Assembly (NCBI RefSeq): GCF_000003815.2
Contig: NC_049990.1
Span: forward strand, 4,527,803-4,591,802
Length of the DNA: 64,000 bases
From: Branchiostoma floridae
Taxonomy: Eukaryota > Chordata > Leptocardii > Amphioxiformes > Branchiostomatidae
Direction of reading: 5' to 3'
Shown one piece after another: positions 13,301-41,294 of this stretch. A model generated the notes under the pieces. That model saw nothing but the letters and a program-made list of their open reading frames with translations, was not told the DNA's origin and did no database searches. Within the stretch, counting starts at the first letter, position 1. Every line of letters begins with the position of its first letter. The translations under genes and the position numbers were made by a program.

Positions 13301-16300
13301 ACATGTATGTCAGGTGTAGGCTTCTTGATCTGCCCTTATCCTGAATGAACCATAATTTTTCTATTGCTATAATGACACTGGTTGCAGCTCCAATAGACCA
13401 AATCTAAGCAGATCTAATAAAACATCAGAATACAAAGAACAAAAGCGTCCCTACCAGGCTGTGTAGTGAGGTCCAGGGTCCTCTTCTTGGTGCTAAGCAC
13501 CCTGGGATTGAGGCGGGGCATGACATTAGGCCTGTCCATCAGCCACTCCAGCAGGTTCATGGAGTTGGTCAGCTCACTCTGGCAGAGAAAAAAAAACATT
13601 TTTCCACGTCTTTAAAACTGAACATGGACTTGAGTTGGTGGGGACGTAATTTTGTGGTAGGAAGAAAATGAGAGTATTTGCAGTCACTGTGGTTTTATGT
13701 TCCCTACAAAAACCTTGAAAATAAAACTGAAGCAGAAATTTCAAGAACTACACTTGTCTAGGTATTGATAGATGTAAAGATAGGCCATAGTATATCCAAT
13801 ATATTTTATGAAATTAAAACTCAAGGGTCTACAGGTTTAAGGTCCCTATTATAAAATAGCAAAGAGTTGAAGCTAGTGCTTTCTTCCAATAGGCACAGTA
13901 TCAAATCAAATCAAAATTGGAATGAAAGGGGCAGGGCACTACTTTGAGAGAGGTGGAAATTCTAGCCAAGACAAACTAACAGTCTGTCTCCTTACCATGT
14001 ACACAGCCCGCTGTAGTTCGGGGGTGATGCCCAGGATCTTACTGACCACAGACTCCTCAAAGTTCTCAGGAGAAATCTGCAGAAATTATGAGTCAACCAT
14101 TAGATGAGACTCACAAGGTAAAATGAAAAAGGCATTTCTCATGTTCACTTAGTGTACTTGACTTGTACATCTTTAAGATTAAAAAAAAAGGTGCAAAAAA
14201 TTTTATTGACCAACAATTGCATAGGGTACAATGTATGGCAACCAATAACAACTACTAGCTAATATAGACAATGGTACTACAAGGCCACATACAGAACAAT
14301 AAAATATTATCAATAACAGCAGTCATGTATAAGTGATCTATTCTCACATTTGGAATAAAGTATAAAAAAATTGACCTACATAGGTGGATATATATCTCAA
14401 GGAAAGATATCAAATAGATTTTCAGTTGTAAAACTATTGAAACTAAACTACTGAAACTAAACTAAAAGAACAGCTGTTAAAAGAAATGCATCCTGACCTC
14501 TTCCTCTGTGAAGGGCACCCCATTCATCAGCACCTGTGGCAGTGGACCCAGTCCTGTCCTCTGGTAGAACTGTCGTCCTGCCTAAACAACAAACAAACAA
14601 ATAAATAAACAAACATATCTAATGTCAGCTAAAACACAAACCTATGATATTTGGATCGATGAAACTTGAATTCAATCCAATTCAATATGAGGATGTGGCT
14701 AGTGTTTTTTATAGATATGCAATCACAACAGAATGGATAAACTACACATTCAATCCCTGTCCTTGGTGCTGAATACACCATCCATACACTGCACATTTAT
14801 CAATACTCTATATTAACTTCGATATTAACTCTAACAACTTCATGGCCTATATACAATTGAAGCAATCTAATAGTTCCTGCATTCCAGCCAACTTATAGTG
14901 TTGCAGATACATGAATATTATACAATGTACATGTACATGCGCTGAAAAAGTAGCATGTAAAATGTATGTGCCCAAAAGTCATGTGGAAAGCTATAACTTG
15001 TACTCACCCTTCTCTTGTCATCATAGTCAGTGTCAGCAGCGATGACATCAGCGATATCGTCTCCAGGGTACTTCCTGCGGAACTTCTCCTTGATGTGGTC
15101 CATCTCCAGCAGACTGTCCTTGTTTCTGGCCAGGCTGTAAACCTGAAACATCCACAAATGTTCATAAGTCCCATTTAACCATAAGTCCCAGTTAACCATA
15201 CGTCCCTGTTAACCATACCTACTAGAAGCTAATGAGAAGGCCTTGGCCTGGCTGCAGTACTGGCATGGAACGATATGATGATGATAGGTCACATTTTAGC
15301 TCATTGCAAAGTTTTTTCTTCCCAAAATGCTCTTGTTTCTAACAGACTGTCCTTGTTTCTTCTGGCCAGACTATAAAGCTAGGAAGTCCACAAAATTTAT
15401 GTTATAACCTACCATTTAACCATTCTAGCTCACTGCAAGAATTTTTTCTACACAAAATGCTGTTGTTTCTAACAGACTGTCATTATTTCTGGCCAGGCTG
15501 TAAACCTGGAAAATTCCACAAATAACCATAGAGAATCCAAATTGAACCTCTCACCAATGAAAAACTGTAATCTGTTAACCTAAATAGCAAAACTCCTTAA
15601 TGTGCCAAACACAATCCTTAATTGCATGGGATCTAAGAAATAAGATTCACCATCACCAGTGCTACCAGCAAGATCTATTAGGTTTTATTTTTATGAAAAC
15701 AACAGCAAAAATCTGACTGGACTGGTTCACATTCCAAGGTTTGAAATCATCAATGGGCTATATATTTGACTCAAATGCAGATGACCACTGAACCAATGGC
15801 ATCACCTAAATATGATCTGTACTTACAGAGTTGAGCCATAGGAAGGCCTTGTCGCTGCCCTGGTCCTGCTGGATGAAGTTGTAAGCCCTGATCAGGGCTA
15901 CGCCCACATCGTCCTGTCCTTCCACATCCTTATCATCATTCACCACAAACACAAGGCCAATCCTACAGGAGAGAATTAAAGTTACTGATATAGGGAAATA
16001 AAAACAAAAGAGATGAATCCAAAAATATAGAACAATGGATGTGTTATGTCAGGTTCAAAACACAGCTTGATGAGCAGTTTGAGAGGCTTTGAAAATTTGG
16101 TTTCTTGATAAGTTATCCATATTTCACCTTAAAGAAAATGATTGAAACTGAACAATTTTATGTGAAAAAGACCTCAGAGATAACATATACTAAGGAACGG
16201 TTGAGGATTAACTTTGATTCAGGTCCAACTCTGTAAGAGTATAAAAAAAAGGATATATATCCTGTAGAACAGATCAGCCAGCTTCATTAGCTGATACGAG

Positions 16301-22300: not shown

Positions 22301-25300
22301 CTTATCAAAGTTTGATTGTAATACGTTTGTATTTGCATGAAAGCTCATCTCATAAAACTCATAAAAGTAATAAAATTCATGAATGTGACAAAGCTAGATA
22401 TTGGAATTACAGGAAACAACACATGTCACTTTATTACAGCAAAACTAGCTAGATTTTTTGCCACACTTTTAATCAACATTGCATATTTTTTCTGCTATTT
22501 TACAGAGTGAGTATAGTAAAAGTTTCCTTACGTGATGTAATCTTTTCTGGGTCAGCGTCTGCGACTTTGTTGGCAAAACTCCAGAATGCATCATTGCTCT
22601 CCTGAGCAAGGAACTCACTGAAAGAAAAAAAAGAGTTAGAAAGGCTATTAGTACAACATCCAGGCACTTTTCATCTTATTTCATCAAAATATATATATAT
22701 AGCAAATCAACTTTCTATTCAGCCCATCAAACTGTATCTATTACTGTAAATGCAGAAATGTTCGCGGTGGATTAATATTCGCGGTTTTCGCGGCGGCCGC
22801 TTCACCGCGAATTTAAAACCACCGCGAACATTTTTCCATAAAGGTAAGTGACTACAGTGCATGGTGCTACCGCGAAATTAAAACCACTGCGAAAAGTCCA
22901 TTTTCCCGCTACCGCGAAATTAAATCCCCGCGAACTTAAATGCATTTACAGTATATAAAATTGTGAAGAGTTCAAAAGTTTCAGAAACACAAATTGAATA
23001 GCTTTAGAGTTTCTTTTTTTTCACAATCAACAATCCACAAACAACCATGACTGCCAGCCACATTTTTCAGGTGCTGAAAGTTGAGGCCTTCAGGGCCAGG
23101 TAAGCTGCCTTGCCTTAGCCCTCACAGCTCCCCTCCTCAGTGATTAGTCCCCCAAGCAGACCCTACGGTGCCTTAGAGATAGCATCAAAGCTGGCCAAGG
23201 AGTATAGCCGGCCAAAGGGAGTCAAACAGGCACTGGTTCCCGGCTATACTCCTTGGACAGCTTTGATGCTATCTTATGCCACACTGTAGGATCTGCTTGG
23301 AGATTAATCATTACTCAGCGATACCCCAGTTGGGGTGGTTCGAGGGTACCTCGAAGAAGAAGAGACGAAGAAACTTTGACCCACCTGGCTTCCAGCAACA
23401 ATGGAGTGTCCCTCCATTTAGCATCTAGTGTGGCCACAATAGACTTGGACTTGGCTTCTGCTGTAAGAATGACCCCTGATAGAACTGTCACCAGGACAAA
23501 CAACATGCTGTGGTATCCTAGTTTTGTGGTATTCTGTAGGACAAAAAAAAAGAAAAATAAAGAAAAAATGACATTTTGGGAGTTGTTAGCTTAATGCAAT
23601 TCTTTAATGTATTACCATATGCTACAGACTGTAACATAAACTCTAATAATTCTGCTAGGTACCTTAAGACCGCTGCTAAGGAAGGTTGATTAACTAAAGA
23701 TCTACAAATGCAATGAGCAATACCAAATGTATGCAAACTTCAGGGGTGCAATATATTTTAGAAGATATATTTAATTGGCCCTCTAAGGATACTGAAAGAA
23801 TTGGCATTTAAGCTACAATTTATAGACTAATGCACGAAATAACAAAGATTTATAAATCACAGATGTCAAACAAACTTCAACTCCCTGCATGCATGATTTG
23901 TAGGTGGCATTGCTTGGCAAAAGTGTAGAGCTAACACACACCATAACATATGCACTATTAACAGGTGTCATATTGCACACAGACAAGTGGTTAGAACTGA
24001 GAGGATCCTGAGAAAAGGGAATGTTGTAACAGCTGGGCTGAGGAAGGCCAGAAACTATATATTCTAGGTCAATTTGGTAACTATGGTTAAACTTTTGTCA
24101 TCCAAAGCAAGCACGCAAGTTTTCATCTCATTATAGCGACTTATACTAATGACATCATACCGTAAAACAAAAATATGTGCAACGGTAAAATCGAATGTTT
24201 AGGTTGGACATTTATTTTGGACTTGGCCGAACGCAATTATCTCCAGCGATACGGGTAATACGTTTATCTATACGTCGTTTTCCTACGCAAAATTCATGCT
24301 AACTCATTGATCAATTCCGGCAACGGGCACTCATTGATCAAAGAGCAATTTTAACCCAAACGTTTGACATTTACTTTGAATTTTTGGGGGGAGGGGGACG
24401 CGAATCCGGAAGTCAATAATACAACATGGCAGACGCGTGTCGAGCTGTTGGACGCCCGTTTGAGGCACTTGACATGGTCACGTAAAAAAAAGATTAAAAA
24501 ATTGCGGTGGGCTAAATCAGGCTGTCAAAGGTGTCCCCGTAATCCCCACGAGTTGTTCTATCTGCCTTGTGAATCTCAAGCGATGGACTTTTACGAGAAA
24601 GTATATATTTGATGTCAAAGTTGACCGATTTTCGACAGCTTTTTCCTATGGTTTCGCCATTGTTTTCAAGCCGAAATACGCACCGTATGGGGGTTTCGGG
24701 GTGTCCGCTTAGTGGGCGAGGTTCAACTGTTTCCGGGTCACGCTATACCGTTGCGGCAGTCACTCGGGACCTCACTCGGTAGTGTACACAAGTACTTTTG
24801 ATGGTGCTGTCAGCGTTTTATCATGTTACGAAGTAATATTGAAATGTCTTTGAAGTATAAGACAGCACTATGATCTGTAAGGTGTTATTCCAATAGGTTG
24901 CGTCGTGGGTAAAGTGAACTGTAGGTAACGTTACCCGACGAAGGCTTTTTACATCTGACTGTTAACTGTTGAAGATATTAAATACATTGCTCGCGCCTGA
25001 CTGAAGGATTAACTAAGATTAGAACAGTATATAGCTAATTAATAGAGAAAAACGTGTTCAGAAGAGAAACTGCCAATTTGAATGACACAAAAATTAGCGC
25101 CGTAAGAATTGTAACGTTATATAGCTAACTTGTAGCGGAAAACGTGTTCAGAAGACAAACTGTGTCAATTTGAATGACACATCTAAAGGACCGTTGTGCG
25201 CTGCATTAAGTGTATATAGCTAACTAATAGCGAAAAACGTGTTCAGAAGAGAAACTGTGTCAATTTGAATGACAGACTTACAGAACAGTAAGAACTATAA

Positions 25301-28300
25301 CGTTATGTAGCTACATGTAATAGCGCAAAACGTGTTCAGAAGACAAACTGTGTCAATTTGAATGACACACTTGCAGATAGCGCAATAAGAACTGTACATA
25401 GGTAACTCATAGCGGAAAAAGCGTTCAGGAGACAAACTGTGTCAATTTGAATGACACACTTACAGGTAGCGCAATAAGAAATGTATATAGCTAACTCATA
25501 GCGAAGTGTAACGTGATCAGAAGACAAACTGTGTCAATTTGAATGACACACTTGCAGATAGCGCAATAAGAACTGTATATAGCAAACTAATAGCGGAAAA
25601 GTGTTCAGGAGACAAACTGTGTCAATTTGAATGACACACTTAAAGGTAGCGCAATAAGAAATGTATATAGCAAACTAATAGCGGAAAAAGTGTTCAGGAG
25701 ACAAACTGTGTCAATTTGAACGACAAACTTGCAGATAGCGCTATAAGAACTGTATATAGCAAACTAATAGCGGAAAAAGTGTTCAGAAGACAAACTGTGT
25801 CAATTTGAATGACACACTTGCAGATAGCGCAATAAGAAATGTACATAGCTAACTCTTAGCGAAGTGTAACGTGATCAGAAGACAAACTGTGTCAATTTGA
25901 ATGACACACTTGCAGATAGCGCAATAAGAACTGTATATAGCAAACTAATAGCGGAAAAGGTGTTCAGGAGACAAACTGTGTCAATTTGAATGACACACTT
26001 GCAGATAGCGCAATAAGAACTGTATATATAGCAAACTAATAGCGGAAAAAGTGTTCAGGAGACAAACCTTGTCAATTTGAATGACACACTTACAGGTAGT
26101 GCAATAAGAACTGTATATAGCAAACTAATAGCGGAAAAAGTGTTCAGGAGACAAACTGTGTCAATTTGAATGACACCCTTGCAGATAGCGCAAGAAGAAC
26201 TGTATATAGCAAACTAATAGCGGAAAAAGTGTTCAGAAGACAAACTGTGTCAATTTGAATGACACACTTACAGATAGCGCAAGAAGAAATATATATAGCT
26301 AACTCATAGCGAAGTGTAACGTGATCAGAAGACAAACTGTGTCAATTTGAATGACACACTTGCAGATAGCGCAATAAGAACTGTATATAGCAACTTAATA
26401 GCGGAAAAGTGTTCAGAAGACAAACTGTGTCAATTTGAATGACACACTTGCAGATAGCGCATAAGAAATGTACATAGCTAACTCATAGCGAAGTGTAACG
26501 TGTTCAGAAGACAAACAGTGTCAATTTGAATGACACACTTGCAGATAGCGCAATAAGAACTGTATATAGCAAACTAATAGCGGAAAAAGTGTTCAGGAGA
26601 CAAACTGTGTCAATTTGAATGACACACTTGCAGATAGCGCAATAAGAACTGTATATAGCAAACTAATAGCGGAAAAAGTGTTCAGGAGACAAACTGTCAA
26701 TTTGAATGACACACAGGTAGCGCAATAAGAAATGTATATAGCTAACTCATGGCGAAGTGTAACATGTTCAGAAGACAAACTGTGTCAATTTGAATGACAC
26801 ACTTGCAGATAGCGCAATAAGAAATGTACATAGCTAACTCATAGCGAAGTGTAGTGTTCAGAAGACAAACTGTGTCAATTTGAATGACACACTTGCAGAT
26901 AGCGCAATAAGAACTGTACATAGCTAACTCATAGCGGAAAAAGCGTTCAGGAGACAAACTGTGTCAATTTGAATGACACACTTGCAGATAGCGCAATAGG
27001 AAATGTACATAGCTAACTCATAGCGGAAAAAGCGTTCAGGAGACAAACTGTGTCAATTTGAATGACACACTTGCAGATAGCGCAATAAGAACTGTATATA
27101 GCAAACTAATAGCGGAAAAGTGTTCAGAAGACAAACTGTGTCAATTTGAATGACACACTTACAGATAGCGCAATAAGAAATGTACATAGCGAACTCATAG
27201 CGGAAAAAGCGTTCAGGAGACAAACTGTGTCCATTTGAATGACACACTTGCAGATAGCGCAATAAGAACTGTATATAGCAAACTAATAGCGGAAAAGTGT
27301 TCAGAAGACAAACTGTGTCAATTTGAATGACACACTTACAGATAGCGCAATAAGAACTGTACATAGCTAACTCATAGCGAAGTGTAACGCGTTCAGTTGA
27401 CAAACTGTGTCAATTTGAATGACACACTTGCAGATAGCGCAATAAGAACTGTATATAGCAAACTAATAGCGGAAAAAGTGTTCAGGAGACAAAGTGTGTC
27501 AATTTGAATGACACATTTATAGAACAGCGATGTATGTAAGAACTGTATATATCAAACTTAAAGCAAAAAACGTGTTCAGAAGACTACCTGTGTCAATATG
27601 ACACATTATAGAACAAAGCTGTTAGAACTGTATATAGCAAACTAATAGCGAAAAACGTGTTCAGGGGACAAACTGAGTCAATTTGAATGGTACACTTGCA
27701 GAATAGCGCCGTAAGAACTGTATATACATGTAGCTAGCTTAAAGCAGAAAGCGTGTTCAAGAGACAAACTGTGTCAATTTTAATGACACACTTACAGAAT
27801 AGCGCCAAAAAACTGTATATAGCTAACTTAAAGCATAAAGTGAGTTCAGAAGACTACCTGTGTCGATTTGAATGACACACCTATAGAATAAGCACTGTTA
27901 CAACATGTATATATATTTAACTAACAGCGCAACGTGTTCAAGAGACAAACTGTGTCAATTTGAATGACACATTATAGAACAGTGCTGTAAGAACTTTATA
28001 TAGCAAACTAATAGCAAAAAACGTGTTCAGGAGACAAGCTGTGTCAATTTGAATGACACACTTACAGAATAGCGCCGTTAAAACAGTATATAACTAACTT
28101 AAAGTGAAAAGTGTATTCAGTAGACTACCTGTGTCAATTTGAATGACAGATTTATAGAAAAGTGCTGTAAGAACTGTATATAGCGGAAAACGTGTTCAGG
28201 GGACAAACTGTGTCAATTTGCATGACATACTCACATCATAGCGCCGTAAAAACAGTACATAGCTAAACAATTAAAAAAAACGTGTTTAGGATACAAAATG

Positions 28301-31300
28301 TGTCTATGTGAATGACACATTCATAGAACAGCGAGGTAAATTTATTTTGACGAAAGCTTGCTCTAACAAAAACTTTTTCAATCGGATGATCATTCTATTT
28401 AATTATCGCTTTACTTTACTTGTGTGTCATATGAATTGACACAGTTGCCCTCCTAACGAAGTTTTCTGTTGTAAAATGGTTATATGCAGTTCTTACAGCG
28501 CTTTTCTTTACGTGTGTCATACAAATTGACACAGTTTTGTGTCCTGAACACATTAGCCGTTAAGATTTAGTCATACATTTGTATACTATACGTTCGGCGC
28601 TATTCTACAAATGTGTCGAAACAAATCGACACAGCTGTGCATTTGACTACGTTTTCAGCAATAAAGTTGTTAGGTACAGCCCAAAGTACACTTTTTACCA
28701 GTGTGTCATATAAATTGACACAAATTCTTTACTGTCCAACTTTTTCCGTGATCAATTTTACACACGTTAAACAGCGCTTTTCTAATTGTGGGTGATATAG
28801 ATTGACACAGTTGTCCCCCGGAAAAACGTTTTCCATTTTTAAGACACGGTTCAAACATCGCTTACAAAGGTGTCAGACAAATTCACACAATTTCCCTCCT
28901 GAAAAAGTCGTCCGCCATCAAGACAATTTTACACTGATTTCACATCGTGTTTCATAGTGTGTCATATGAAATAACAGTTGTCCTCCTGACAAGGTTTTCT
29001 GTCATTTGATACAGTTGTCGTCCTGACCGTGAGGGTTTTCCGTTTTGTGAAATTTTAATAAGTTTTAAAAAACTTGTTAATTGACACAGTTGTCGTCCCG
29101 ACCAAGTCTTCCATCAGTTTAATACTGTTTAATCATCGCACTAGTGTGCCATACTATCAGTGACAGTTGTCCACCAAAGTTTCCGTCATGAGGCAGTTTT
29201 ATACTGTTTAACACTCGGTTATTAATTGCAAAGCCGTCCTCCTGACAAAGTTTTCTGTTATAAACTATTGTGTCAATTAATGTGACAAACTAGCAAACTA
29301 AATAGATATGCCTAAATCGTATAATCATTCGATTGAAAAAGTTTTCGGCAGAGCGAGTTTTCCGTCATAAGATAGTTATTATGCGTTTCAAAAGTGTGTC
29401 ATATGATTGACACAGTTTTCAGCTCAGACAGCGCAGTACTAGATTTGACAGTTTACTTGAACAAGTTAGTATTTCAGTTACTTTAAACCTACCATGGTCC
29501 AAACTCCAGTAATCAGTTGTTAATTGATATGAAATAACCGCATCTAAAGTCATATATATACGAAGGAACGCCATTTAGTTCGTAAGAAGGCACCTTAGAA
29601 CTTGTCTGACACACTTGCAGAAAAGCGCTGCCTGAACCGCGCTATTATGTAAGTGTGTCATTCATATTGACACAGTTTGACTTCTGAACACGCATTAATA
29701 TTCCACTTTAAGTTAGCTATATACAGTTCTTACGGCGCCATTATATAAGTGTGTCATTCAAATTGACACAGTTTGTCTCCTGAACACGTATTTTGCTATT
29801 AGTTAGCTATATACAGTTCTTACGGCGCTATTATGTAAGTGTGTCATTCAAATTGACACAGTTTGTCTCCTGTATACGTTTTCGGTATTAATTTGTTATA
29901 TACAATTATTTGGGCGCTGTCTACAAGTGTGTCATTCAAATTGACACAGTTTGACATTTGAACACGCATTCCGCTTTAAGTTAACTATATACAGTTCTTA
30001 CAGCGCTATTCTATAAAGCATTGTGTCATTCAAATTGACACAGTTTGTCTCCTGCACATGTTTTTCGCTCCTAGTTAGCTATATACAGTTCTTACGGCAC
30101 TATCATGTAAGTGTGTCATTCAAATTGACACAGTTTGACTCCTGAACACGTTTTTCGCTCCTAGTTAGCTATATACAGTTCTTACGGCACTATTATGTAA
30201 GCGTGTCATTCAAATTGACACAGTTTGACTCCTGAACACGTTTTCCGCTATTAGTTAGCTATATACAGTTCTTTTAGCTTTGTTCTATAAGTGTGTCATT
30301 CAAATTGACACAGTTTGACATTTGAACACGCATTGCGCTTTAAGTTAGCTATATACAGTTCTTACAGCGCTGTTCTATGAATGCATCATTCAAATTGACA
30401 CAATTTGTCACCTGAACACCCTTTTTCGCTATTACTTAGCTATATACAGTTCATTAAGATTTGTTCTATAAGTGTGTCATTCAAATTGGCACAATTTGAC
30501 ACCTGAACACGTTTTCCGCGATTTCTTAGCTATATACAGGTCTTACATTGCTGCTCCATAAATGTGTCATTCAAAGTGACACATTTTGTCTCCTGAACAC
30601 GTTTTTCGCTATTAGTGAGCTATACACAGTTCTTACGGCGCTATTATGTCAGTGTGTCATTCAAATTGACATAGTTTGTCTCCTGAACACATTTACGCTA
30701 TTAGTTAGCTATATACAGTTCTTACAGCACCATTATGTAAGTGTGTCATTCAAATTGACACAGTTGGACTCCTGCACACGTTTTTCGCTATTAGTTAGCT
30801 ATATACATTTCTTTCAGCTTTGTTCTATAAGTGTGTCATTCAAAGTGACACAGTTGGACTCCTGAACACGCATTGCACTTTAAGTTACCTATATACAGTT
30901 CTTACAGAGCTATTCTATAATGCATTGTGTCATTCAAATTGACACAGTTTGTCTCCTGAACACGTTTTTCGCTATTAGTTAGCTATATACATTTCTTATT
31001 GCGCTACCTGTAAGTGTGTCATACAAATTGACACAGTTTGTCTCCTGAACACTTTTTCCGCTATTAGTTTGCTATATACAGTTCTTATGGCGCTATCTGC
31101 AAGTGTGTCATTCAAATTGACAGTTTGTCTCCTGAACACTTTTTCCGCTATTAGTTTGCTATATACAGTTCTTATGGCGCTATCTGCAAGTGTGTCATTC
31201 AAATTGACAGTTTGTCTCCTGAACACTTTTTCCGCTATTAGTTTGCTATATACATTTCTTATTGCGCTATCTGTAAGTGTGTCATTCAAATTGACACAGT

Positions 31301-32154
31301 TTGTCTCCCCAAGGAGGTCTCCCGAACACGTTTTCCGCTATTAGTTCCCTGTATACACTTCTTACAGCACTGTTCTATAAATGTGATATTCAAATTAACA
31401 CAGTTTGTCTCCTGATGTCTACGAGAATGCCAGTTAGTTCGTTCGGAAGGGACCTTACAACCGTTGCAGATTCGCAACGTGGGCCGAGACGATACGAACA
31501 AACACAAACTTAAAAAACGTTCTGCAAGTTCAAACACACTTTCGCCAAGAGTACCTTAACAAACCTAATTTAACAATATGCGTAAGCCTGACTTGAATCC
31601 TCCTCTACCGAACCTAGCGCAGACTGAGACCGTCAAGATACCTGGTGACCCGCGTTCAATGACCTCACTCGTACGACCCGGAAGTATATGATCGTAATCG
31701 GTTGCACGGAAACCCCCATGCAGTGCGAAATCGAGGCCGAAAACAGGCATAAAGAGCCAGTTTGAAGGCTAACTTTGACTCTTCAAATCTCATCCCGAAA
31801 TAATATTTGAATCAACACGAGTACTGTAGGCGATAGAACAGCTCGTGGGGATTACGTGGGCACCTTTGACAGCCTGATTTGGGCCACCGCGATTTTTTAA
31901 TCTTTTCTTTACGCGACCATGTCAAGTGCCTCAAACGGGCGTCCAACAGAGCTGTGATTCGCCGGCTGCCGGATCAGCTGTTTAAATCCGATTCTGGCGC
32001 GTAAAGAAATAATCAAGCTATCTGAGGCACCGATACACATCTACGGAGTATATAACCGCGTTTGGGGTATCCAGGAACGATTCTAGAGCGCCAGACCGAA
32101 GGAGAAAGAAACGAAACTTACCGGTCGCCTGTTTCTAGCACAGGAGGCTGCCAT
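1..32154 (-). CDS. UGGT: UDP-glucose:glycoprotein glucosyltransferase (UGGT), 40 exons seen, 3' end outside window
   Basis: UGGT is the soluble ER-lumen folding sensor that re-glucosylates N-glycans of misfolded glycoproteins so that calnexin/calreticulin rebind them. Forty exons join in a single frame (4495 coding nt, about 1498 codons) from an ATG at 32154 to the left edge. The order matches the family: signal peptide, thioredoxin-like and beta-sandwich region (exons 2-33), then a GT24 catalytic domain (exons 34-40) with FVDADQ, the DQ/DLPNNM junction and [10 protein letters not shown]. The vertebrate protein is about 1550 residues, so roughly 50 codons including the ER-retention signal should lie left of base 1. 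Exon coordinates are given in the five block entries below. All junctions have GT..AG ends and preserve frame, which makes the model strong. Vertebrates have UGGT1 and UGGT2; I cannot say this copy is specifically either. Introns hold many transposons and partial exon copies. Confidence 0.96.
1775..1970. mobile_element. Inverted-repeat MITE in UGGT intron 37
   Basis: The arms CTGTCAGACACCATCATCAG and the inverse ending ATGATGTCTGACAG pair for about 50 bp (GGGTTAGAATGGCTG, AGAATCAGAT), with an unpaired centre. Short open frames across it are not genes. Confidence 0.65.
2798..2976 (-). pseudogene. Two decayed tandem copies of the start of UGGT exon 36
   Basis: Two fragments upstream of exon 36 repeat its acceptor and first codons. 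The nearer (about 2798-2862) keeps GACTTCTTGCCCCACATGGC, has lost 21 bp in frame and changes KWPRW to KWPCW. The farther (about 2905-2976) has many changes and an in-frame stop after the phrase corresponding to YSFQF. Neither has a usable exon end, so both look like non-coding relics of local duplication. Confidence 0.6.
3300..4260. repeat. Decayed ~130-bp tandem repeat in UGGT intron 34
   Basis: A core TCAGCAATCATCCAGTATTC followed by AGCACCAAGGACAGG recurs near 3308, 3716, 3845, 3959, 4105 and weakly 4225, with TTCTAAGTAAGAA and GATGGTTTCACACAGAACT between copies. Copies differ by many changes. Confidence 0.65.
4863..8822 (-). CDS. UGGT: UGGT exons 26-33: region before the catalytic domain
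   Basis: Exons: 8788-8822, 8536-8631, 7946-8048, 7367-7497, 6571-6767, 6096-6202, 5480-5650, 4863-4948. Landmarks are [20 protein letters not shown] (exon 28), [20 protein letters not shown] (exon 29), [19 protein letters not shown] (exon 30), [20 protein letters not shown] (exon 31), [20 protein letters not shown] (exon 32) and an acidic linker [16 protein letters not shown] (exon 33). A second, shortened copy of exon 30 lies just upstream at 6848-6940 (separate entry). The intron between exons 29 and 30 carries a long purine-only tract. Confidence 0.94.
6848..6940 (-). pseudogene. Truncated second copy of UGGT exon 30 (possible poison exon)
   Basis: This stretch repeats the splice acceptor and first 31 codons of exon 30 ([19 protein letters not shown]). 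It lies about 80 bp upstream of the real exon in transcription order. Compared with exon 30 it has ten base changes, and all ten are synonymous. After the shared part it reads EISEL and a stop, and the remaining ~100 bp of exon 30 are absent. No strong donor follows (weak GTAGTA and GTTAGT only). It may be a decayed duplicate, a cassette that triggers nonsense-mediated decay, or an assembly or haplotype artefact. Confidence 0.6.
7000..7325. repeat. Purine-only (GAGA)-rich tract in UGGT intron 29
   Basis: About 320 bp of almost pure G/A on the plus strand, with GAGAGAGAGA runs and repeated AGCAAGAGGAAAAG / AGCAAGGGGGAA modules. Open frames on both strands here are low-complexity and not genes. 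Confidence 0.9.
9047..17131 (-). CDS. UGGT: UGGT exons 14-25: central region
   Basis: Exons: 17012-17131, 16358-16443, 15827-15962, 15008-15142, 14498-14581, 13996-14076, 13455-13578, 11816-11914, 10961-11055, 10240-10443, 9467-9607, 9047-9148. Landmarks are [15 protein letters not shown] (exon 14), [15 protein letters not shown] (exon 16), [17 protein letters not shown] (exon 18), [14 protein letters not shown] (exon 20), [10 protein letters not shown] (exon 21), [12 protein letters not shown] (exon 23) and [13 protein letters not shown] (exon 24). The exon 18 acceptor was set at TTTAG before GCAGGACGACAG, because the nearby CAG would shift the frame relative to AGRQFYQ. Intron 20 holds a 1.07-kb Helentron-like copy (12184-13250). 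Confidence 0.93.
9721..9750. repeat. (TTTG)n microsatellite
   Basis: Seven tandem TTTG units in UGGT intron 23. Confidence 0.85.
10652..10893. mobile_element. Palindromic MITE in UGGT intron 22
   Basis: Arms AGTTCACCTTTATC ... GATAAAGGTGAACT pair over most of the 240 bp, including TATGTCCA / TGGACATA and a loop around GATAGTTTCAAACTGC-like sequence. TA flanks are possible. Confidence 0.7.
11600..11749. mobile_element. Small MITE with CAGGGCTTGAAAT ends, UGGT intron 21
   Basis: 150 bp with inverted ends CAGGGCTTGAAAT / ATTTCAAGCCCTG, of hAT-like appearance. A clear 8-bp duplication is not seen. A LINE 3' scrap (GCTGGTGTGTTACACC) lies nearby at 11468-11483. Confidence 0.6.
12184..13250 (+). 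mobile_element. Helentron-like element in UGGT intron 20
   Basis: Plus-strand copy of the 1.06-kb family, running from ACCTCCATGAAATGTCATGG to GAACTCTAG. It has a GTCTGTGT microsatellite at about 12225-12252 and three internal monomers that each start GATAACTC or GATAACTG. No coding capacity is visible. Confidence 0.65.
15339..15511 (-). pseudogene. Two relic copies of the start of UGGT exon 17
   Basis: Near 15339-15378 and 15461-15511 the sequence repeats the beginning of exon 17 together with its acceptor side, reading like the [12 protein letters not shown] coding sequence with indels. Both are upstream of the true exon (15008-15142). They are short and not open, so I read them as decayed partial duplications. 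Confidence 0.5.
16258..16293 (-). pseudogene. Short relic copy of the end of UGGT exon 15
   Basis: Thirty-six bases downstream of exon 15 match its 3' part (the KLADLFYR coding stretch) with a few substitutions. There is no donor site. It is a small decayed duplication. Confidence 0.4.
17527..20815 (-). CDS. UGGT: UGGT exons 6-13: N-terminal half, thioredoxin-like domains
   Basis: Exons: 20641-20815, 20069-20165, 19605-19677, 18913-19113, 18715-18775, 18354-18445, 17969-18032, 17527-17613. Recognisable UGGT stretches are [16 protein letters not shown] (exon 7), an acidic [11 protein letters not shown] segment (exon 8), [20 protein letters not shown] and [10 protein letters not shown] (exon 9), [11 protein letters not shown] (exon 11) and [17 protein letters not shown] (exon 13). 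Each exon is bounded by AG on its upstream side and GT on its downstream side and keeps frame. The acceptor of exon 12 is CAAAG rather than CAG or TAG. Mobile elements interrupt neighbouring introns at 19313-19482, 17674-17889 and 20352-20467. Confidence 0.93.
17674..17889. mobile_element. Degenerate hAT-type MITE in UGGT intron 12/13
   Basis: Starts CAGGGCTGTCTCCAGGAC and ends near GGGGACAGTCCCT. Its left part resembles the left end of the element at 55778 (TCCTTCC, GGACGGAA, GGAAAATAATTTT). Flanks AACAGATG and AACAGGTG match at 7 of 8 positions. Confidence 0.6.
19313..19482. mobile_element. Palindromic MITE with 9-bp target duplication
   Basis: Ends TAATCTCCAAGCAGATCCTA and its inverse, flanked by exact 9-bp repeats GTTATACAG (19304-19312, 19483-19491). 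Nine-bp duplications suggest a Mutator-like mobiliser. Relatives lie at 23145-23306 and 61216-61386. Confidence 0.75.
20352..20467 (-). mobile_element. LINE 3'-end fragment, same family as 39113-39467
   Basis: (TGTATC)n followed by TATATAGCCGGTATAAC, GGCGTAACACACC and GCAGGCACGCGGCGCAGCAG, the inverted 3' UTR and tail of the LINE. About 115 bp only. Confidence 0.7.
21302..32154 (-). CDS. UGGT: UGGT exons 1-5: signal peptide and N-terminal thioredoxin-like region
   Basis: Exons: 32122-32154, 23385-23533, 22532-22617, 22087-22217, 21302-21414. Exon 1 is only 11 codons (begins [10 protein letters not shown]) and ends at a GTAAGT donor. Exon 2 starts in the same frame and supplies the hydrophobic core ([11 protein letters not shown]) and the cleavage region before KSKSIVATL, so the signal peptide is split over an 8.6-kb intron. 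An in-frame ATG also exists inside exon 2, so a shorter start is possible. Exon 3 encodes [16 protein letters not shown] and exon 4 [12 protein letters not shown], both recognisably UGGT-like. Exon 5 contains [11 protein letters not shown]. Intron phases are 0, 2, 1, 0 and 2 after exons 1 to 5. Confidence 0.9.
21584..22011. mobile_element. hAT-type MITE in UGGT intron 4
   Basis: TAGGG...CCCTA ends with inner GTACCAGTAC / GTACTAGTAC, flanked by exact 8-bp repeats GTTGCTAC (21576-21583, 22012-22019). Inside are CAGGTCCAGGTCCGG-type subrepeats near both ends. Confidence 0.75.
22742..22953. mobile_element. MITE with CGCGAA-rich arms in UGGT intron 2
   Basis: Begins TACTGTAAATGCAGAAATGT and ends ATGCATTTACAGTA, with multiple TTCGCGG / CCGCGAA blocks giving several nested pairings. 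The TA at both ends suggests a mariner-type TA target. Confidence 0.75.
23145..23306. mobile_element. Palindromic MITE, second copy of the 19313 family
   Basis: Shares CCAAGCAGACCCTACGG, GCATCAAAGCTGG, CAAGGAGTATAGCCGG and the inverse arm. It ends about 80 bp from UGGT exon 2. No intact target duplication is seen. Confidence 0.7.
24446..24745 (+). repeat. Left terminal inverted repeat of the foldback element
   Basis: It pairs with 31670-31948 on the other strand. Matching landmarks from the tip inward are GGACGCCCGTTTGAGGCACT, a run AAGATTAAAAAAT, CAGGCTGTCAAAGGTG, GTAATCCCCACGAG, GTCAAAGTT, CATGGGGGTTT-like and TTCCGGGTC. Identity falls toward the inside and there are indels. Confidence 0.75.
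25040..28330 (+). repeat. Left ~89-bp minisatellite array (about 35-38 units)
   Basis: Each unit contains a dyad, TGTGTCA + ATTTGAA + TGACACA, followed by a ~68-bp spacer. Spacers begin CTTGCAGATAGCGCAATAAG, then a TATATAGC motif and an end close to GTGTTCAGGAGACAAAC. Two spacer types alternate irregularly: one with AACTAATAGCGGAAAAAG, the other with AACTCATAGCGAAGTGTAAC. Units from about 25340 to 27500 are very alike; units near 24990-25300 and after 27500 are more divergent. Unit count is by eye. Short open frames in this array are repeats of the same meaningless peptide and are not genes. Confidence 0.9.
28331..29639. repeat. Decayed centre of the foldback element
   Basis: Near 28340-28420 the unit orientation switches from plus to minus. 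To the right, dyads such as TGTGTCATATGAATTGACAC (28422) recur about every 90 bp to roughly 29000, while the spacers between them no longer resemble the outer units. From 29000 to 29570 only scattered pieces remain. At 29572-29602 lies a block similar to one at 31430-31461. Confidence 0.65.
29640..31412 (-). repeat. Right ~89-bp minisatellite array (about 20 units, inverted)
   Basis: Same unit as the left array but in the opposite orientation, with the dyad read as TGTGTCATTCAAATTGACAC and spacers containing TTAGCTATATACAGTTCTTA and TCCTGAACACG. The three units nearest 31080-31260 are almost identical and share a 4-bp loss in the dyad (TTGACAG). Confidence 0.9.
31670..31948 (-). repeat. Right terminal inverted repeat of the foldback element
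   Basis: Reverse-complement partner of 24446-24745, with the same ordered landmarks. The outermost bases CCAACA are followed by GAGCTGT, which also occurs at the left boundary. Confidence 0.75.
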
Positions 32155-33513: not shown

Positions 33514-36500
33514 TCAAACAAAGTCAACGACACCGCCATGTGCTCCGTATTCCCACTCAAAGGGCCTTTCCACCTGATCAAGACATGATATCACGTCATA
33601 GTCGACCCCTGCGTCCTGGAGAATAGACTGTAACCTCCTTCTCGTGGCCCTACGTCCCAACTGATCTCTCCATGCTGTCAGCATCGCGAACTTCTGTTGC
33701 CGTGCATTGTAGGGGTTGTTGTACTTGAACTCGTCCACGGCTGCCCTGGTGAAGTCCATGAGGATGGCGACGCTTTCCCAATCTTTATCCAGCTTGCCAG
33801 CTACCCGCAAAAGCTGTTGGTCGGATAATGGCTCGTACGAATAATCGGCAAAACGTCGTCCTGGTGGTGAGGGCACAAGAAACTCTACAGGGACCCTATT
33901 ATCGCAGAGAGAGCAGATCACTTCATCTTCTTCTGGCCACCTGGAACTTGGATGTAGCCAGTTCCCAGGAAATGATGGCCGGTGGCACACAGGGCAGACG
34001 GTTACTCGGTCATACCGGACACCTGTGGAAGAAATCATCAAGGATTTAATTGGGCCATTGTTTGACAAGCTTCGAAATAGAAATATGAAGTAATTGATTA
34101 GCCACTTTACTACTGTTGGTACCATTGTGTATAAATAGACAGGAACAACATGTACATGTTTGTATGATTTTGTATGATGGAAAATATTTGTCACAAATGT
34201 TTAGATACTGCTGCCTGATTAAATAACTGCAAGTTCAAACCTGGCCACTGCTTCAGAAGGTCTTCCATTTCCGCACTTATTTCTTTCAACGTCATCCACA
34301 GAAATATTGCACCAGTCATCCCATGAGGAAGGTTTTCTGGTCTAGCACTGAGTGAAACCACAAGCCCTTCGGCATCTTCAAACCTCAGGAGCACCAGTAT
34401 TCTGCTCCGTGTGTGCTTACATAATGTACCAGTGCTCCAATGAGCTACAAAGTGCAGTTTATGTTCTGGGCGGTGTGCTCTCACTGTGAGGCGTGCAAAC
34501 AGACCAGGAGGGATAAAAGATGGAAACTGGTACTGAAGTGAAATGATGGGAGTGTTTCCTGACGACCACACCTTCTTAGTCATGTATTCCAAGTTGTCTT
34601 TTATGTGCCATGGTAACAGAAGTCTGTCTGAAATGTGGTGACGTGTACGTGTCTTGCTGTCTGAGACACGTTTAACACGCCATGGCAACGGCAATCTTTC
34701 CTGCGCCCCATACGGATCAACGACCTGTTCTTTCTCATCAAGGTCATAACAAAGATCAAACTGTCTCATAAGCTCAATCAGCACATGAAAAATATCGTCA
34801 AATGTTCCCGAGCGACATCCTCTTTCAACATCTGACCACAGACACCTCAGCAATTTGGTATGCAGTATTCCCTTTCTAACCAAGTCATTTTTCATCGTCC
34901 GAAACTCAGCCGATGATATCTCGGCCTCTCTGTAGCAGGTGTCCGCCCCGTAATCAAGAAATGTTTCAAGATCATGCCTGATAACCTTCCTGAAGATATC
35001 TACAAGAGAAGCTGGCTTGAGAAACACGTGGTTTCTCAACGACTCTATCTCTGAATACCACAGGATCTTGCCGGTGTCGTGGAGATACTGTGCCACTGTT
35101 TTGATGCGAGATTTGGGCTGCAGATTGGGGACATTTTTATTTAGTAAAGCCGTGAAGTCATCCCAAGTCATGTAGGGAATGCTAAGCTCATTCCCCCTTT
35201 TTTCTACACAAGCTTCAGTGTCCGCCCACGCCTTGGGAATGGGGCGACCGACCTCAGGGAAAAGTTCTTTATTCACAGCATAGTTGAGAATCACTTGCTT
35301 CAAATACTGAATGCCGTCAAGAGATTTAGCTGAGCTAACAGGCACAGGTTTTGGGTGTATCGATGGCCTTTTCTGAAGGAGAATCTTAATCTGTTTCTCC
35401 CTATCTCTTGCAGCTTCTCCTGTTTCCTTCAAAATACGCTCAAGCTGTTTCTCTAGGATCTGTATTCTCATTCTTTCTTTACCCTCAAGCTTCCGACACA
35501 AATCGTCACACCTACGTTCTACCTCTGCTGTCGAGAGTTTATCAATATGAGTAGCAACAGGGATGACAACTGGGTTCCCTACTTTAGCTATCATATTTTC
35601 CATCCAATCTCCACATGTGTGAGAAAAGCTGTTGGAATCATACTTCTCCAGATTAACTATCAAAAGCACAAGGGCCTTAGAACTCAAGAAGAATTGGTGA
35701 GTCATGTAGTATGTTTCTTGACCAGCAAAGTCCCACACTGATAATGTGATATCAGAAGTATTTGGGGCAGAGAGATTGAGTTCAGCTATTTCTATGCCAT
35801 GTGTTCTTTCCTCAGGTTTTGTCAGACAAGAACGATTCTGCTGAAAAACTCTGACAAGGCTGGTCTTCCCAGCTTCATAGGTCCCCAAGAACAGTGTCTT
35901 GAGACATTGTGTGATACTGCTGGCCGTTGTCAAGTCTTCGTAGAACGCCTGTATGGCCGACAGGCCTGCCTGACACACCTGTAATGGGGGATCAATAATG
36001 GGGTTGCCTTGTAAATTTAGCTTTACATCTTTGGGCATACCCATGATAGACTGTGGGATGACTTTTATTTCATTGTTTGTTAAGTCAACCTTCTTTATTT
36101 TATCCATCTGAATGAGGGCTTCTGGGAAGTGTGTAAAGTGATTTTCTGCTAAGGCAATCATTTCAATCACATTCACCTCATTCTTTTGCAAAGAGCTGAC
36201 AGAATTGATATGGTTGTGGGAGGCACGGATTTCCACAAGATTTGGCAAGCTGATCACGTGAGACGGTATCTCCCTTAGCCAGTTGTGGGACACGTCAAGA
36301 ATAGCAAGGCTCTTACAACTTTTCACGTTTTCACTTATTGTTCTGATGTTGTTTTGCTTGAGGTACAGCTTCTTCAACGAACGAAGAAAGCAAAGAGCTA
36401 GCGGTAGATCCTCTAACTTATTGTGACTTAGATCGACGACACACAGCGTTGGAGAGAGGTCATTTAGATCCAAATCCACTGGAAGCTTTTTAATCTTATT

Positions 36501-37625
36501 ATGGCTAAGTAACAATGCTTTTAAACTTCTCAATAGCAGCAGAGCTTCAGCTACATTACTAAGCTTATTGTTACTGATATCAATATACTCCATGCTTGGC
36601 GACACCCTTGCCATTTCCAGTACGGGCAACGATTTAATGTTGTTGTTCATAAGCAGCAAAGTAGAAAGGCATGGCAGATAGAAGAGCTCAGCAAGCTGCA
36701 GTGATATCATTCTTTTGCTCATGTTTGCTCCTATCTTGTTATGTGAGAGGTTAACCTCCGATAGGTTACCTAATTCTTTTAAACATTTGGGTACCTCCTG
36801 AAGCAAATTATTAGATAGGTCTAGAAATACTAAAGAGAATGCACTGACCTTCTTTTTTCCAGCAGATGGCTCGAGCCACCTGACTGTCTTGTTATGATTG
36901 CAAGAAAAGGCCTCTAAGTTTTCCATTTCAAGTATTTCATATGGAATCTCTTCAATGCTGTTGTAAGACACATTGAAGTTTTTAACAGATCTGAAGTTAG
37001 TTACATCTCTAAGACCAAGTATGTTATTGTGACTTACGTTAAAGCTCTTTAGACAGGGCTGTGATTCCATAGGCACAGCTTGTATAGTCGACAGGTTGTT
37101 ATGACTAAGGTCAAGAACTTCTAGGTCTTTCAGGTTTTCCAGAGATTGTGGTACAGAATCCAGCTGGCATTTTGACAATTGGAGAGAGTGTATACTGACA
37201 CACTGAAATAAATTTGTCAAGCTAGAATCATCAAGTTCAATGCCTATGATTGTTACGGTTTTCAGTTGTTTGAATTCTTCAATCTCCTCAAAGATCGTTA
37301 GCGAACGATTCTCATCATTTTGTGTGAGCTTGATATGCTCTACGTCAGAGTGTTCTTTGTATTGTTCTCGATGGAAAAGAAAAGTTGATTCGTGGTCATC
37401 ATCACACGAGTCGCTCCTACAAATAGGACATGTTAAGGACTCCTGGTCGTACTGTTGAGGCGATACATCTTCTTGTGTCTGTCTGTTTTGGAACCCCTTT
37501 ACTAAATAGTAGAAGCAGATAGTTACAACTGTTGCCACCAAACATGTCATCAGGATCCATCCTACATGCCCTCCATAGAGCTCTATCACCGCCATTGGGT
37601 TTTCTAAAAGATTGGAAAACTCCAT
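33514..37625 (-). CDS. Roco-Death protein 1: TM, LRR, Roc-COR, Cys2-Cys2 segment, Death domain
   Basis: Two coding exons, 34241-37625 and 33514-34022, join in frame (3894 nt, 1297 residues). Order: start MEFSNLLENP; membrane helix WILMTCLVATVVTICFYYLV (about residues 23-42); a CPICRSDSC segment; some 17-18 leucine-rich repeats (about 120-560); Roc GTPase with P-loop GTYEAGKTS (~585), DFAGQE (~631) and THID (~692); a charged helical stretch; COR domain (KAWADTEACVE); CPVC...CSLC; C-terminal Death-type domain (DQQLLRVAGKLDKDWESVA). Roco GTPases are multidomain signalling proteins; Death domains recruit adaptors. The ligand and pathway are unknown. Without splicing, exon 1 reads into the 218-bp intron and stops after 16 more residues (stop at 34191), giving a form without a Death domain. 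The donor (GTTTGA) is weak. The tandem paralogue is at 44311-48619. Confidence 0.88.
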
Positions 37626-38545
37626 CGTACCAAACGGTTTAAGACAAGCTAATTGAAATGAATGACTATGGTTATGTATGATAACTAATGGGACTGAAAG
37701 GCTGTGGTTTGCTCAGTAAGACGCAGAATTGTTCCCTGTTAACCTGCAACAGAAGAAGCACGGTTTAAAAACATCATGGAAATATAATCAATACAAGTAT
37801 TGCATTATAAACATAAACGTTTTAATATACATGATTTACATACCATTACGTTGTTTTTCATTAAAGGTACCCCTGGACAAAAATCATAGAAATCCATTCT
37901 TTCATTCTCGAATCATCCTGTTTAAAAGAAGTAGTTCTAAAGATCTGCTAGAGGGATAAACCTGTCCAAAACACGAGGTTTTAACACTGAAAGTTCGGCT
38001 ACAGTGCCAAATAATGCCGCCATAGGCTTAAAATCTAATCAATTCTTCAACAGGACAATACATTATACCAAAGTTCATGACAACTCAGCCATAGCTTCTT
38101 GAGTTATTTCAGTCAACCACACACAAACATACAAGCATGTATGCACTCAAACGCTACGACTCAAACGAATAGCTTTCTGGGCAAAGGAAACGCTTTAGAA
38201 ATCAAATTCATGTTGTGGCCACATTAGTCATTAGCGACTGAATGAATCGTCATTGATGATAGTCTAATTCTGGTCTGTCTGGTTCTCTTTGAATTCAACT
38301 GACAATATCCTATTGAACCTTACCTTTGTTTACTCGTCTGGCGATTGTGATAGGTTGTATTGTGTGCCTTTCTTGGAGGCGGTGCCCCTGGTTTCACCTC
38401 GCCTGGGGCACTGTGTCAACATTACACAACAGCAAGCGTCAGGTCATATGCGCCTCGCCTCATATACAGTAGTTTTCTTTCGCATGACTAACTTCACATT
38501 CCATACAATCTTATTTTGGAGTTCTAGGTGAAGATATATACAAGA

Positions 38546-39944
38546 CTAGAGTTCGGCGACCTCATACCTCCATGAAAATTTAGAGCTTTTGTAAATTTCA
38601 TGCAATTAACATAATTTATGCATGGCGTTCAGCATTGACTAACGTACACATGTCACAATTATAAAATTCCCATTATTAATCATAAAGCAGTTTTGCAATT
38701 TTTACATAAATTATGCAAATAAATTCCTCATTACCATATTTGGTATCTGCTTATATTCCACCTATCATAATTAACATGTGTTACATTTATAAAAGTCCAG
38801 TTATTGAAAACAACGGAATTATACAATTTCCTCATTAATTATGCAAATCAACTCCTCATTTGCATAACATGTATATCATTATGAACATCTTTGCCTAAGG
38901 TACCCGCATGCCTAATGTGATGCCAATCCGTCAATCCTTTCTGCATTTATCCTCTTTGGAATGTCTTGACAAAAATGCCCCTGCAGTTTCTAAATTAAAC
39001 GTTAGGGGGCTGAAACTTGCCCCACTTTGTCATGACACTGAAAGCTATCTACCACCCAAATGTCAAGACCATATCACATCTGGGACAAGAGATACATAGA
39101 AAAAACTGCTATCTGTATCTGTATCTGTATCTATATAGCCGGTATAACCGCCATTCGGCGTAACACACCAGCTTCGCAGGCACGCGGCGCGGCAGCAGCT
39201 GGTTATATTACACTGAACGATCCGTCACACCTAACTTTTGCACATCTAACTGCAAGCGTTCTTTAAAACTATCCAGAGAAGATGCCCCTACTGTACTTGG
39301 TGATAACAAATTCCAATCTACGATAGTTCTGGGAAAATACGAATTTTTGAACACATCAATCCTAGCTTGGAAACTCTGGTACTTGAAGTCATGGCTGTTT
39401 CTTGTTCTTTTTTGAGCTGGTATTAGATACTTATCAGTCGGTACGTCCACCAGCTTATTACAGATATGATAGAATATTCTCATTAATCATGCAAATGAGC
39501 TCCTATTATGCATAATTAGTATTTCATTTTGTACAACATTGTCTACGGTACCTAAATACCAAAAATCATGAAAATCCGTTGTTCCCTTCTTGAGTTATCG
39601 TCTTCAGAAGTTTTTGACAAAAATGCCTCTGCTATCCCCAAACTAGCCGCTAGGGGGCCCAAACTTTTTTCACTTATTCCTTAGCACAAGAGCTATCTAA
39701 CATTCCAAAATCGTGACCATAGCTTGTTCAGAACACGAGATAGGAAAACCGGAAGTTGCGCTGCAGTACCAAGAAAAGCCGCTAGGGGGTCCAAAATCTA
39801 ATCATTTCTAGCTTTCATCACACCTCACCAACACACCAAGTACGAAACCAATCCGCCCAGCCGTTCTTGAGTTATCTTGTTGACAGACAGACAGACACAC
39901 AAACGCAGGGTAAAATATAACCTCCATGACATTTCATGGAGGTA
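38546..39944 (-). mobile_element. Helentron-like (HINE/DINE-like) element, copy with nested LINE
   Basis: A 1.06-kb repeat, also at 12184-13250 and 40235-41294. On the minus strand it begins ACCTCCATGAAATGTCATGG, carries a (GTCTGT)-type microsatellite, has about three diverged internal monomers (each with GATAACTC and a TTTGCATAATTAATGA-like end) and ends ...GAACTCTAG followed by T. The 5' tip recurs inverted some 20 nt inside the 3' end. This asymmetric terminal repeat and CTAG|T end fit Helentron-derived elements. It is 340 bp longer than its sisters because of the insertion at 39113-39467. Confidence 0.6.
39113..39467 (-). mobile_element. 5'-truncated non-LTR retrotransposon (CR1/L2-like 3' end) nested in the Helentron-like copy
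   Basis: The minus-strand frame 39208-39483 reads like the C-terminus of a LINE reverse-transcriptase ORF (FKYQSFQARIDVFKNSYFPR, DWNLLSPSTV, LDSFKERL). A GC-rich 3' UTR follows (GTGTTACGCCGAA) and then a (GATACA)n tail. The sister element at 40.8 kb shows the empty site (CTGCTAT/GATAG). The first codons of that frame belong to the host element. Non-functional fragment. Confidence 0.8.
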
Positions 39945-40234
39945 ATAAACGTTAAAGTTAGGTTATATAGAAAATAAACTATATGGGCACAAAGAAAATA
40001 CGTAACTATATCGTTTTTACTACATCATGCATACCAAATATTTGTAAGTCCTGCCGTTTTACCCTACATTTGTAGAATCTGGTTCCAAATACCAGTTAAG
40101 CAACCGTCAATGTTCTTGATCGCCTCGTCCTTTTGGTGGATTTGGATATGGTAGTTTGCTTCTCATGAGTGTTTGTTATTCTTTACTCTAGCCAAATCCA
40201 CTATCATTTTGTAAAAGATGAATAAATAAATAAA

Positions 40235-41294
40235 CTAGAGTTCGGCGACCCCATACTTCCATGAAAATTTAGAGCTTTTGTAAATTTCATGCAATTGACT
40301 ACCACATTAACATAATTTATGCATGGCGTTGTTCAGCATTCACTAACGTACACATGTCACAATTATAAAATTCCCATTATTAATCATAAAGCGGTTTTGC
40401 ATTTTTTACATAAATTATGCAAATAAGTTCCTCATTACCATATTTGGTATCTGCTTATATTCCACCTATCATAATTAATATGTGTTACATTTATTGAAGT
40501 CCAGTTATTGAAAACAACGGAATTATACAATTTCCTCATTAATTATGCAAATTAACTCCTCATTTGCATAACATGCATATCATTATGAACATCTTTGCCC
40601 AAGGTACCCGCATGCCTAATATGATGCCAATCTGTCAATACTTTCTGCATTTATCCTCTTTGGAATGTCTTGACAAATATGCCCCTGCAGTTCCCAAATT
40701 AGATGTTAGGGGGCTGAAACTTACCCCACTTTGTCATGACGCTAAAAGCTATCTACCATCCAAATGTCACGACCATATCACGTACGGGACAAGAGATACA
40801 TTGAAAAAACTGCTATGATAGAGTATTCTCATTAATTATGCAAATGTACTCCTATTATGCATAATTAGTATTTTATTTTGTACAACATTGTCTAAGGTAC
40901 CTACATACCAAAAATCATGAAAATCTGTTGTTCCCTTCTTGAGTTATCGTCTTCAGAAGTTTTTGACAAAAATGCCCCTGCTATCCCAAAACTAGCCGCC
41001 AGGGGGCCCAAACTTTTTTCACTTATTCCTGAGCACAAGAGCTATCTAACACCCCAAAATCGTGACCATAACTTGTTCAGAACACGAGATAGCAAAACCG
41101 GAAGTTGCGCTGCAGTACCAAGGGAAGCCGCTAGGGGGCCCAAAATCTAATCATTTCTAGCTTTCATCACATCCCACCAACACACCAAGTATGAAACCAA
41201 TCCGCCCAGCCGTTCTTGAGTTATCTTGTTGACAGACGGACACACACACACACACACAAACGCAGGGTAAAATATAACCTCCATGACATGGAGG
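40235..41294 (-). mobile_element. Helentron-like element, uninterrupted copy
   Basis: Same family and orientation as 38546-39944, separated from it by about 290 bp. The hairpin at its 5' tip is shortened. It supplies the empty site for the nested LINE fragment. A short (CA)n stretch at 41238-41261 corresponds to the microsatellite block. Confidence 0.65.

Follow-up and report, generated by a model that had tools for sequence, protein, structure and literature searches.

An apparently non-autonomous foldback transposon family in amphioxus, probably placed by a YY1-like target motif

What is the long inverted structure that lies within the UGGT gene of Branchiostoma floridae, and how did it come to be there? 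The sequence-only reading of the locus had described a foldback element at 24446..31948, in a window of 64,000 nucleotides (the whole stretch of DNA analysed here, to which all positions refer). These coordinates proved exact: the element runs from 24446 to 31948 (7503 bp), with the ends TGTTGGACGC...GCGTCCAACA and GAGC adjoining it on both sides. Taking all the results together, it is very probably a member of a young family of foldback DNA transposons, apparently non-autonomous and placed by a YY1-like motif, for which we infer the binding steps.

The presence of two opposed arrays of one ~89-bp unit, as first described, was borne out by two methods. TRF defined two oppositely oriented arrays of a single 89/90-bp unit, at 25021-28319 and 29639-31308. 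A search of the element with a unit profile returned 67 stretches in all, comprising 37 units at 25022-28333 and one short stretch (29599-29628) on the plus strand, and 9 decayed units at 28415-29420 and 20 units at 29639-31415 on the minus strand. A 41-base core of the unit was found with at least 26 matches at 36 and a further 25 places, while shuffled sequences (one per strand) gave none, with 23 matches at best. The orientation switches at about 28340, the middle of the element (28415-29420) consists mostly of decayed minus-strand units, and a spacer of about 260 bp separates the right inner repeat from the right array (Table 1). The terminal inverted repeats (24448-24567 and 31946-31828) are 92.5% identical over 120 bp, and inward of this strong repeat a weak, gapped homology extends to about 575/533 bp (inner part: score 8.5, compared with at best -25 in 50 shuffles). 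The ~300 bp originally given for the terminal repeats is thus intermediate between their strong outer part (122 bp) and their weak full extent (575 bp). The ends typical of the family are TGTTGG...CCAACA, and its outer terminal domains carry an ATGG of their own (GACATGGTCACG) about 28 bases in, which is retained in the relatives L061 and L062 and altered in C8c. The right array is also flanked on both sides by a faint direct repeat, about 43 bp long (29559-29601 and 31420-31461; score 46, compared with at most 34 in 500 shuffles), which may be a trace of the array's origin.

Table 1. Parts of the foldback element and its immediate surroundings, in window positions
Feature	Position	Strand	Basis or remark
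ATGG of YY1-like target motif	24426..24429	+	16 bases from element (this copy)
Left target-site duplication GAGC	24442..24445	.	
Left terminal domain, 575 bp	24446..25020	+	Strong inverted repeat = outer 122 bp
Left array, 37 units, ~89 bp	25021..28333	+	TRF, unit profile
Left inner inverted repeat, 107 bp	28337..28443	+	76% to 29269-29378
Core, 825 bp	28444..29268	.	With adjoining inner repeat, 8 decayed minus-strand units (28415-29118)
Right inner inverted repeat	29269..29378	-	
Right array, 20 units, ~90 bp	29639..31415	-	TRF, unit profile
Three left-type units within right array	31001..31258	-	Unit classification
Right terminal domain, 533 bp	31416..31948	-	
Right target-site duplication GAGC	31949..31952	.	
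Predicted UGGT exon 1 (context outside element)	32122..32154	-	Donor 32121, acceptor 23534

The host gene was confirmed as UGGT on the minus strand by comparing eight minus-strand stretches with Pfam, of which four scored above the cut-off for UGGT domains (PF18400, PF18401, and PF18404 twice), one matched PF18400 below the cut-off, and three had no match. The predicted first exon (32154-32122) is followed by a GTAAGT donor (32121), splicing from which to a second exon from 23533 would keep the reading frame, and the element fills most of the predicted 8.6-kb first intron; the proposed placement inside intron 1 is thus upheld by the Pfam domains and the predicted in-frame join. It had also been suggested that the arms could form kilobase-scale double-stranded RNA. 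When positions 25000-31450 were folded in silico on the UGGT strand, 1584 of 2465 pairs joined one arm to the other and the longest run, with small interruptions, was 330 pairs; the paired blocks include 30968-31311 with 25517-25863. A long imperfect duplex in the UGGT intron is therefore plausible on this model, but a broken one, and effects of double-stranded RNA on UGGT are a prediction from the fold.

Several other features of the window were noted. Within the same gene, minus-strand stretches at 15428-15550 and 14921-15208 are, from their translations, likely a UGGT intron-exon boundary that was partly duplicated, which resembles the intron-exon minisatellites termed 'mirages' described for amphioxus globin genes (PMC3087553); as described there, mirages differ in kind from the foldback element. 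A dispersed ~1.1-kb repeat occurs at 12182-13253, 40232-41297, and 38526-39948 (89-92% alike, inverted between 12 and 40 kb), one part of it within UGGT. Paralogous long ORFs on the minus strand (34738-37472 and 45642-48400; 75.5% DNA likeness) encode leucine-rich repeats with Roc and COR-A domains, a Death domain (33517-33999) adjoins one of the two, the gene content includes an MRJP/yellow-type gene, and the window's only N run (994 N) lies at 57192-58185.

To characterise the family we searched the window's own assembly (513,431,437 bases in 431 contigs; the window is C12:4527803-4591802). The terminal 20-mer occurred with at most two mismatches 35 times forward and 34 times in reverse, and a reversed control gave 0 and 0. 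Inverted pairs of ends less than 20 kb apart numbered 29 and spanned 3.9-17.2 kb (median 7.7 kb); 28 were real, complete copies. The remaining pair, 14 kb long on C16 (L040), was rejected as false: one end matches the terminal 20 bp only, and a reverse transcriptase (PF00078) lies between the two ends. For 16 loci fetched whole or nearly so, the left terminal domain was present in 16 and the right in 14, and the order of plus-strand left array, core, and minus-strand right array was found in 14, distributed over many contigs, with C2b and C13a departing from it. Several copies contain N runs, which account for the long gaps in C8 and C11 and into which the right arm of C5 enters. One locus looks composite (L019, C341:1-9999): a single copy is followed by an N run and then by another copy's left arm, inverted. 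The sequence-only reading had held that an assembly artefact, or ends absent elsewhere together with no empty allele, would overturn it; neither applies, given 28 dispersed copies with the same ends and with target-site duplications.

The single-copy parts of the element are nearly identical across the family, with a mean pairwise difference of 1.45% for the core (12 copies) and 1.6% for both the left end (14 copies) and the right end (13 copies). Unit decay in the core and the difference between left and right ends must therefore predate the spread of the family and have been copied along with it. Heterozygosity in amphioxus is given as 3.2-4.2% (PMC12500494), and because the core difference lies below this value we consider the family young; insertion polymorphism, including empty UGGT alleles, should consequently be testable.

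No transposase was found at the Pfam cut-off in eight stretches of the window copy, nor by eye in the ORFs of C2b, C13a, inserts and long gaps, and L068-L071. Five ORFs compared with Pfam gave one reverse transcriptase, one rhodopsin-type receptor, and three without a match. C2b and C13a, both missing the core, were considered as autonomous candidates and set aside, as a 100-N run sits in the middle of C2b and C13a is a divergent relative. A perfect 13-base end occurred 59 times, only 4 of them outside known copies compared with 8 for the reversed control, and a partner with identical ends is thus probably absent from this assembly. No autonomous copy was recovered in a search that compared few ORFs with protein families and reached the interiors of only part of the complete copies. 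Among older relatives, L062 has related ends and four plus-strand units. A fragment resembling the right end (86% in L072), which we read as an old relative captured and then amplified, is embedded in another abundant repeat (40 scored of 135 candidates), whose flank is common to L061, L072, and all 14 of 14 further loci (L073-L086).

Insertion sites were compared in the 27 complete copies with both flanks, leaving out the false pair L040 and C341, which has no 5' flank. A perfect target-site duplication of 4 bp was present in 19/27 and of 5 bp in 2/27, with neither in the remaining six (C8, C13a, C2c, L027, L033, and C8c). The 4-bp duplications are varied and include GCCC, AACA, GTCA, TCAC, TGAG, CGCG, GTAA, GAGC, TTCT, and TAAA. 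An 8-bp duplication (TCGAGCTG/CAGAGCTG, 6/8 matches), our first reading from the window alone, was abandoned once other copies showed 4 bp; on its own the window gives weak evidence of any duplication, with 726 of 20000 random pairs equally good.

The flanks of these copies share a second feature, which the sequence-only reading had missed: the tetranucleotide CCAT stands exactly 15 bp outward of one element end in 22 of the 27. The copies without it at this distance are C8, C2c, L032, C8c (which has CCAC instead), and the window copy, with a distance of 16. Over 61 flanks and offsets 0-27, CCAT was confined to offsets 15 (25 times), 16 (once), and 27 (once), and at the window's CCAT frequency the binomial probability of at least 22/27 at offset 15 is about 1e-42. 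It was the first 12 copies (10/12) that drew attention to this offset, and among the 15 added later 12 fit (P about 1e-23). For single-ended loci outside the 27, the motif was present in L039, L064, and L067 and was not seen on the sole visible flank of C5, C13b, L065, and L066, nor, outside the counts, in the divergent relatives L061 and L062 or in the 18 bp of L063. The target before insertion can be written as ATGG-N11-TSD, and insertion orientation is free, since the motif stands at either element end.

Alignment of the 25 motif-bearing flanks gave CAAnATGGCGGC, which we take to be the YY1 consensus, with C in 13, A in 18, A in 17, any base, ATGG in all 25, C in 20, G in 14, G in 15, and C in 13; every named position was enriched over an assumed 60% A+T background. 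On this comparison the aligned target appears to match a YY1 site. The flanks were also CpG-rich (observed/expected 0.82 vs 0.56, p 0.0005) with no clear rise in GC (p 0.06), both relative to a control drawn from this window only, suggesting that insertions lie near promoters.

These patterns are consistent with a mechanism in which a transposase encoded elsewhere would bind the two ends over their outer ~120 bp and, in all probability, the dyad block present in every unit (see below), the complex being led to its target either by host YY1 seated on its site or by a motif-reading domain of the transposase. YY1 sites cluster near gene starts, and targeting of this kind would direct new copies to locations like UGGT intron 1. 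Once inserted, a copy would see its arrays lengthen, shorten, and now and then swap units between arms. The fullest version of this model, which may hold and which we put forward tentatively, is a YY1-tethered chordate DNA transposon that would insert 11-15 bp away from a YY1 site bound by the protein and close to the start of a gene, and whose minisatellite arms would serve as self-rebuilding arrays of transposase-binding sites. Retroelements such as Ty3 and Tf1 are known to integrate by tethering, close to the site that a host factor occupies and at a fixed distance from it, and the amphioxus family would resemble them in that respect; those elements have known integrases, whereas here we have a DNA element and the motif alone.

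It is also quite possible that the transposase recognises the motif directly, through a DNA-binding domain of its own, and that the likeness to YY1 sites is convergence. The near-fixed spacing, with 25 flanks at 15 and one at 16, would suit a single rigid protein, and some sites, such as those of C2a and C3, match ATGG only. Against this, the flanking CAAn...CGGC positions fit the whole of the YY1 consensus, beyond the ATGG, and the flanks are CpG-rich.

The description of the unit as dyad-bearing was correct, and conservation within the unit is concentrated in the block that includes this dyad. The dyad, TGTGTCA-ATTTGAA-TGACACA, is a perfect 7+7 palindrome. Over 749 units from 14 copies, conservation was 96.9% in the dyad arms, 96.7% in the loop, and 84.8% elsewhere in the unit, and when the decayed core was compared with 21-base windows of the unit, offsets 33-53, which span the dyad and the sequence immediately before it, matched 4-7 times each and others 0-3 times. 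By analogy with Galileo, the dyad block is probably a protein-binding site, likely for a transposase; this P-superfamily element of Drosophila has long ends whose tandem repeats are described as carrying extra THAP binding sites (PMC3688188). The block could also have been retained for some other reason, and we consider it unlikely that the reason is a hairpin, either a cruciform or in RNA. The perfect palindrome would suit a hairpin, as would unit 28612 of the decayed core, in which both sides of the dyad have changed and pairing is kept. Against a hairpin, the 749 array units include no pair changed on both sides, where about 5.6 in total would be expected, and conservation of the loop is on a par with that of the arms.

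Array size varies among copies: in the N-free copies with a core (C17b, C3, C2a, C13b, and the window copy) the left array has 11-38 units and the right 17-27, and C2a and C5, whose cores and left ends are identical, differ in their left arrays, with 24 and 39 units, respectively. By leave-one-copy-out classification of the 749 units in 14 copies, 425/428 units of left arrays were left-type, and outside C341 only 6/270 units of right arrays were; left and right arrays are thus separate lineages. In the right array of C341, 35/51 units were left-type, a share that is in part a join artefact, because an N run and then a second left end follow on that contig. Three of the six left-type units stand next to each other in the right array of the window copy (31001, 31090, and 31177, to 31258), bordered on either side by right-type units, and unit 31090 is identical to left unit 26557. 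This block, which the sequence-only reading had missed, is best read as sequence that passed between the two inverted arms. A mirror-like arrangement in which the outer units of both arms resemble each other, and likewise the inner units, was unsupported (Spearman -0.30, p 0.07; 9/36 circular shifts as extreme), and the family-wide comparison of units replaces it with separate left and right lineages and a transferred block.

The likening of this structure to the FB elements of Drosophila and the TU elements of sea urchin held for its class and was not supported as to kinship with FB. Like FB and TU, the amphioxus element has long inverted arms of tandem repeats, and it is mobile by the evidence of 28 complete pairs of ends, dispersed and with target-site duplications in 21/27. 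Its unit and ends differ from theirs, and FB duplicates 9 bp of target, where this family duplicates 4 and sometimes 5; comparison over 9 bp in 12 copies gave matches at 32 of 108 positions, which argues against FB/Mutator. To our knowledge, no target motif of this type is known for FB or TU. Galileo and P duplicate 7-8 bp, which the amphioxus copies do not, and binding to the unit, for which Galileo is the analogy, is inferred here. Galileo does share long ends with internal repeats in its published description (PMC3688188). The nearest architecture that we found is that of Tetris from Drosophila virilis, which has a 220-bp unit and is described as having, like the amphioxus element, a terminal flanking domain, outer tandem repeats, an inner domain, and a middle, and as non-autonomous with arrays that vary in size among copies (PMC4079207). 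The 8-10-bp duplications of that description are not found in this family, and the 89-bp dyad unit, 4-bp duplications, and target motif set the two apart (PMC4079207). Membership of the FB/Mutator or P/Galileo foldback lineages would agree with the long ends, internal tandem repeats, and absence of visible coding sequence, but given 4-bp duplications in 19/27 copies, in place of these lineages' 9 bp and 7-8 bp and the 8-10 bp described for Tetris (PMC4079207), we regard it as very improbable.

Ginger1 and Ginger2, known from lancelet, are described as having TGTNR ends of 40-270 bp and 4-bp duplications, with CCGG or CCGT as the target of Ginger1 and RTATAY as that of Ginger2 (PMC2836005). The TGTTG ends of the amphioxus element and its 4-bp duplications in 19/27 copies resemble these, but the duplications match neither CCGG/CCGT nor RTATAY as given in that description (PMC2836005), and no Gypsy-type integrase was present among the few ORFs compared with protein families. 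Assignment of non-autonomous elements in Repbase is described as using the length of the duplication together with the first 11 bases (PMC4455052), and a superfamily call for this element consequently awaits an autonomous copy.

Two further explanations can be dismissed. Dispersed copies with mostly 4-bp duplications disfavour FB/Mutator, Tetris, and Galileo and likewise exclude an assembly artefact or local inverted duplication: tandem arrays do assemble poorly, N runs occur in several copies, and C341 looks composite, but a common order of parts in 14/16 loci on many contigs, the target-site duplications, and the sequence differences between arms (diverged inner ends and separate unit types) make that account negligible. 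Random insertion followed by survival near promoters would explain CpG-rich flanks relative to the window, but selection would not fix a distance to one base, and as the source of the motif it deserves almost no credence.

Foldback elements were already known; what appears to be new is the targeting by a DNA transposon of a transcription-factor-like motif with near single-base phasing. Among the matches listed in the open literature, none described an amphioxus foldback element, and nothing comparable to YY1-phased or motif-phased integration of a DNA transposon was found. The C2a and C5 pair offers a natural experiment in minisatellite turnover. If the proposed mechanism is true, the family would be a DNA-transposon counterpart to the tethering of retroelements, and its insertions would form a readable record of YY1-like sites open in the amphioxus germ line.
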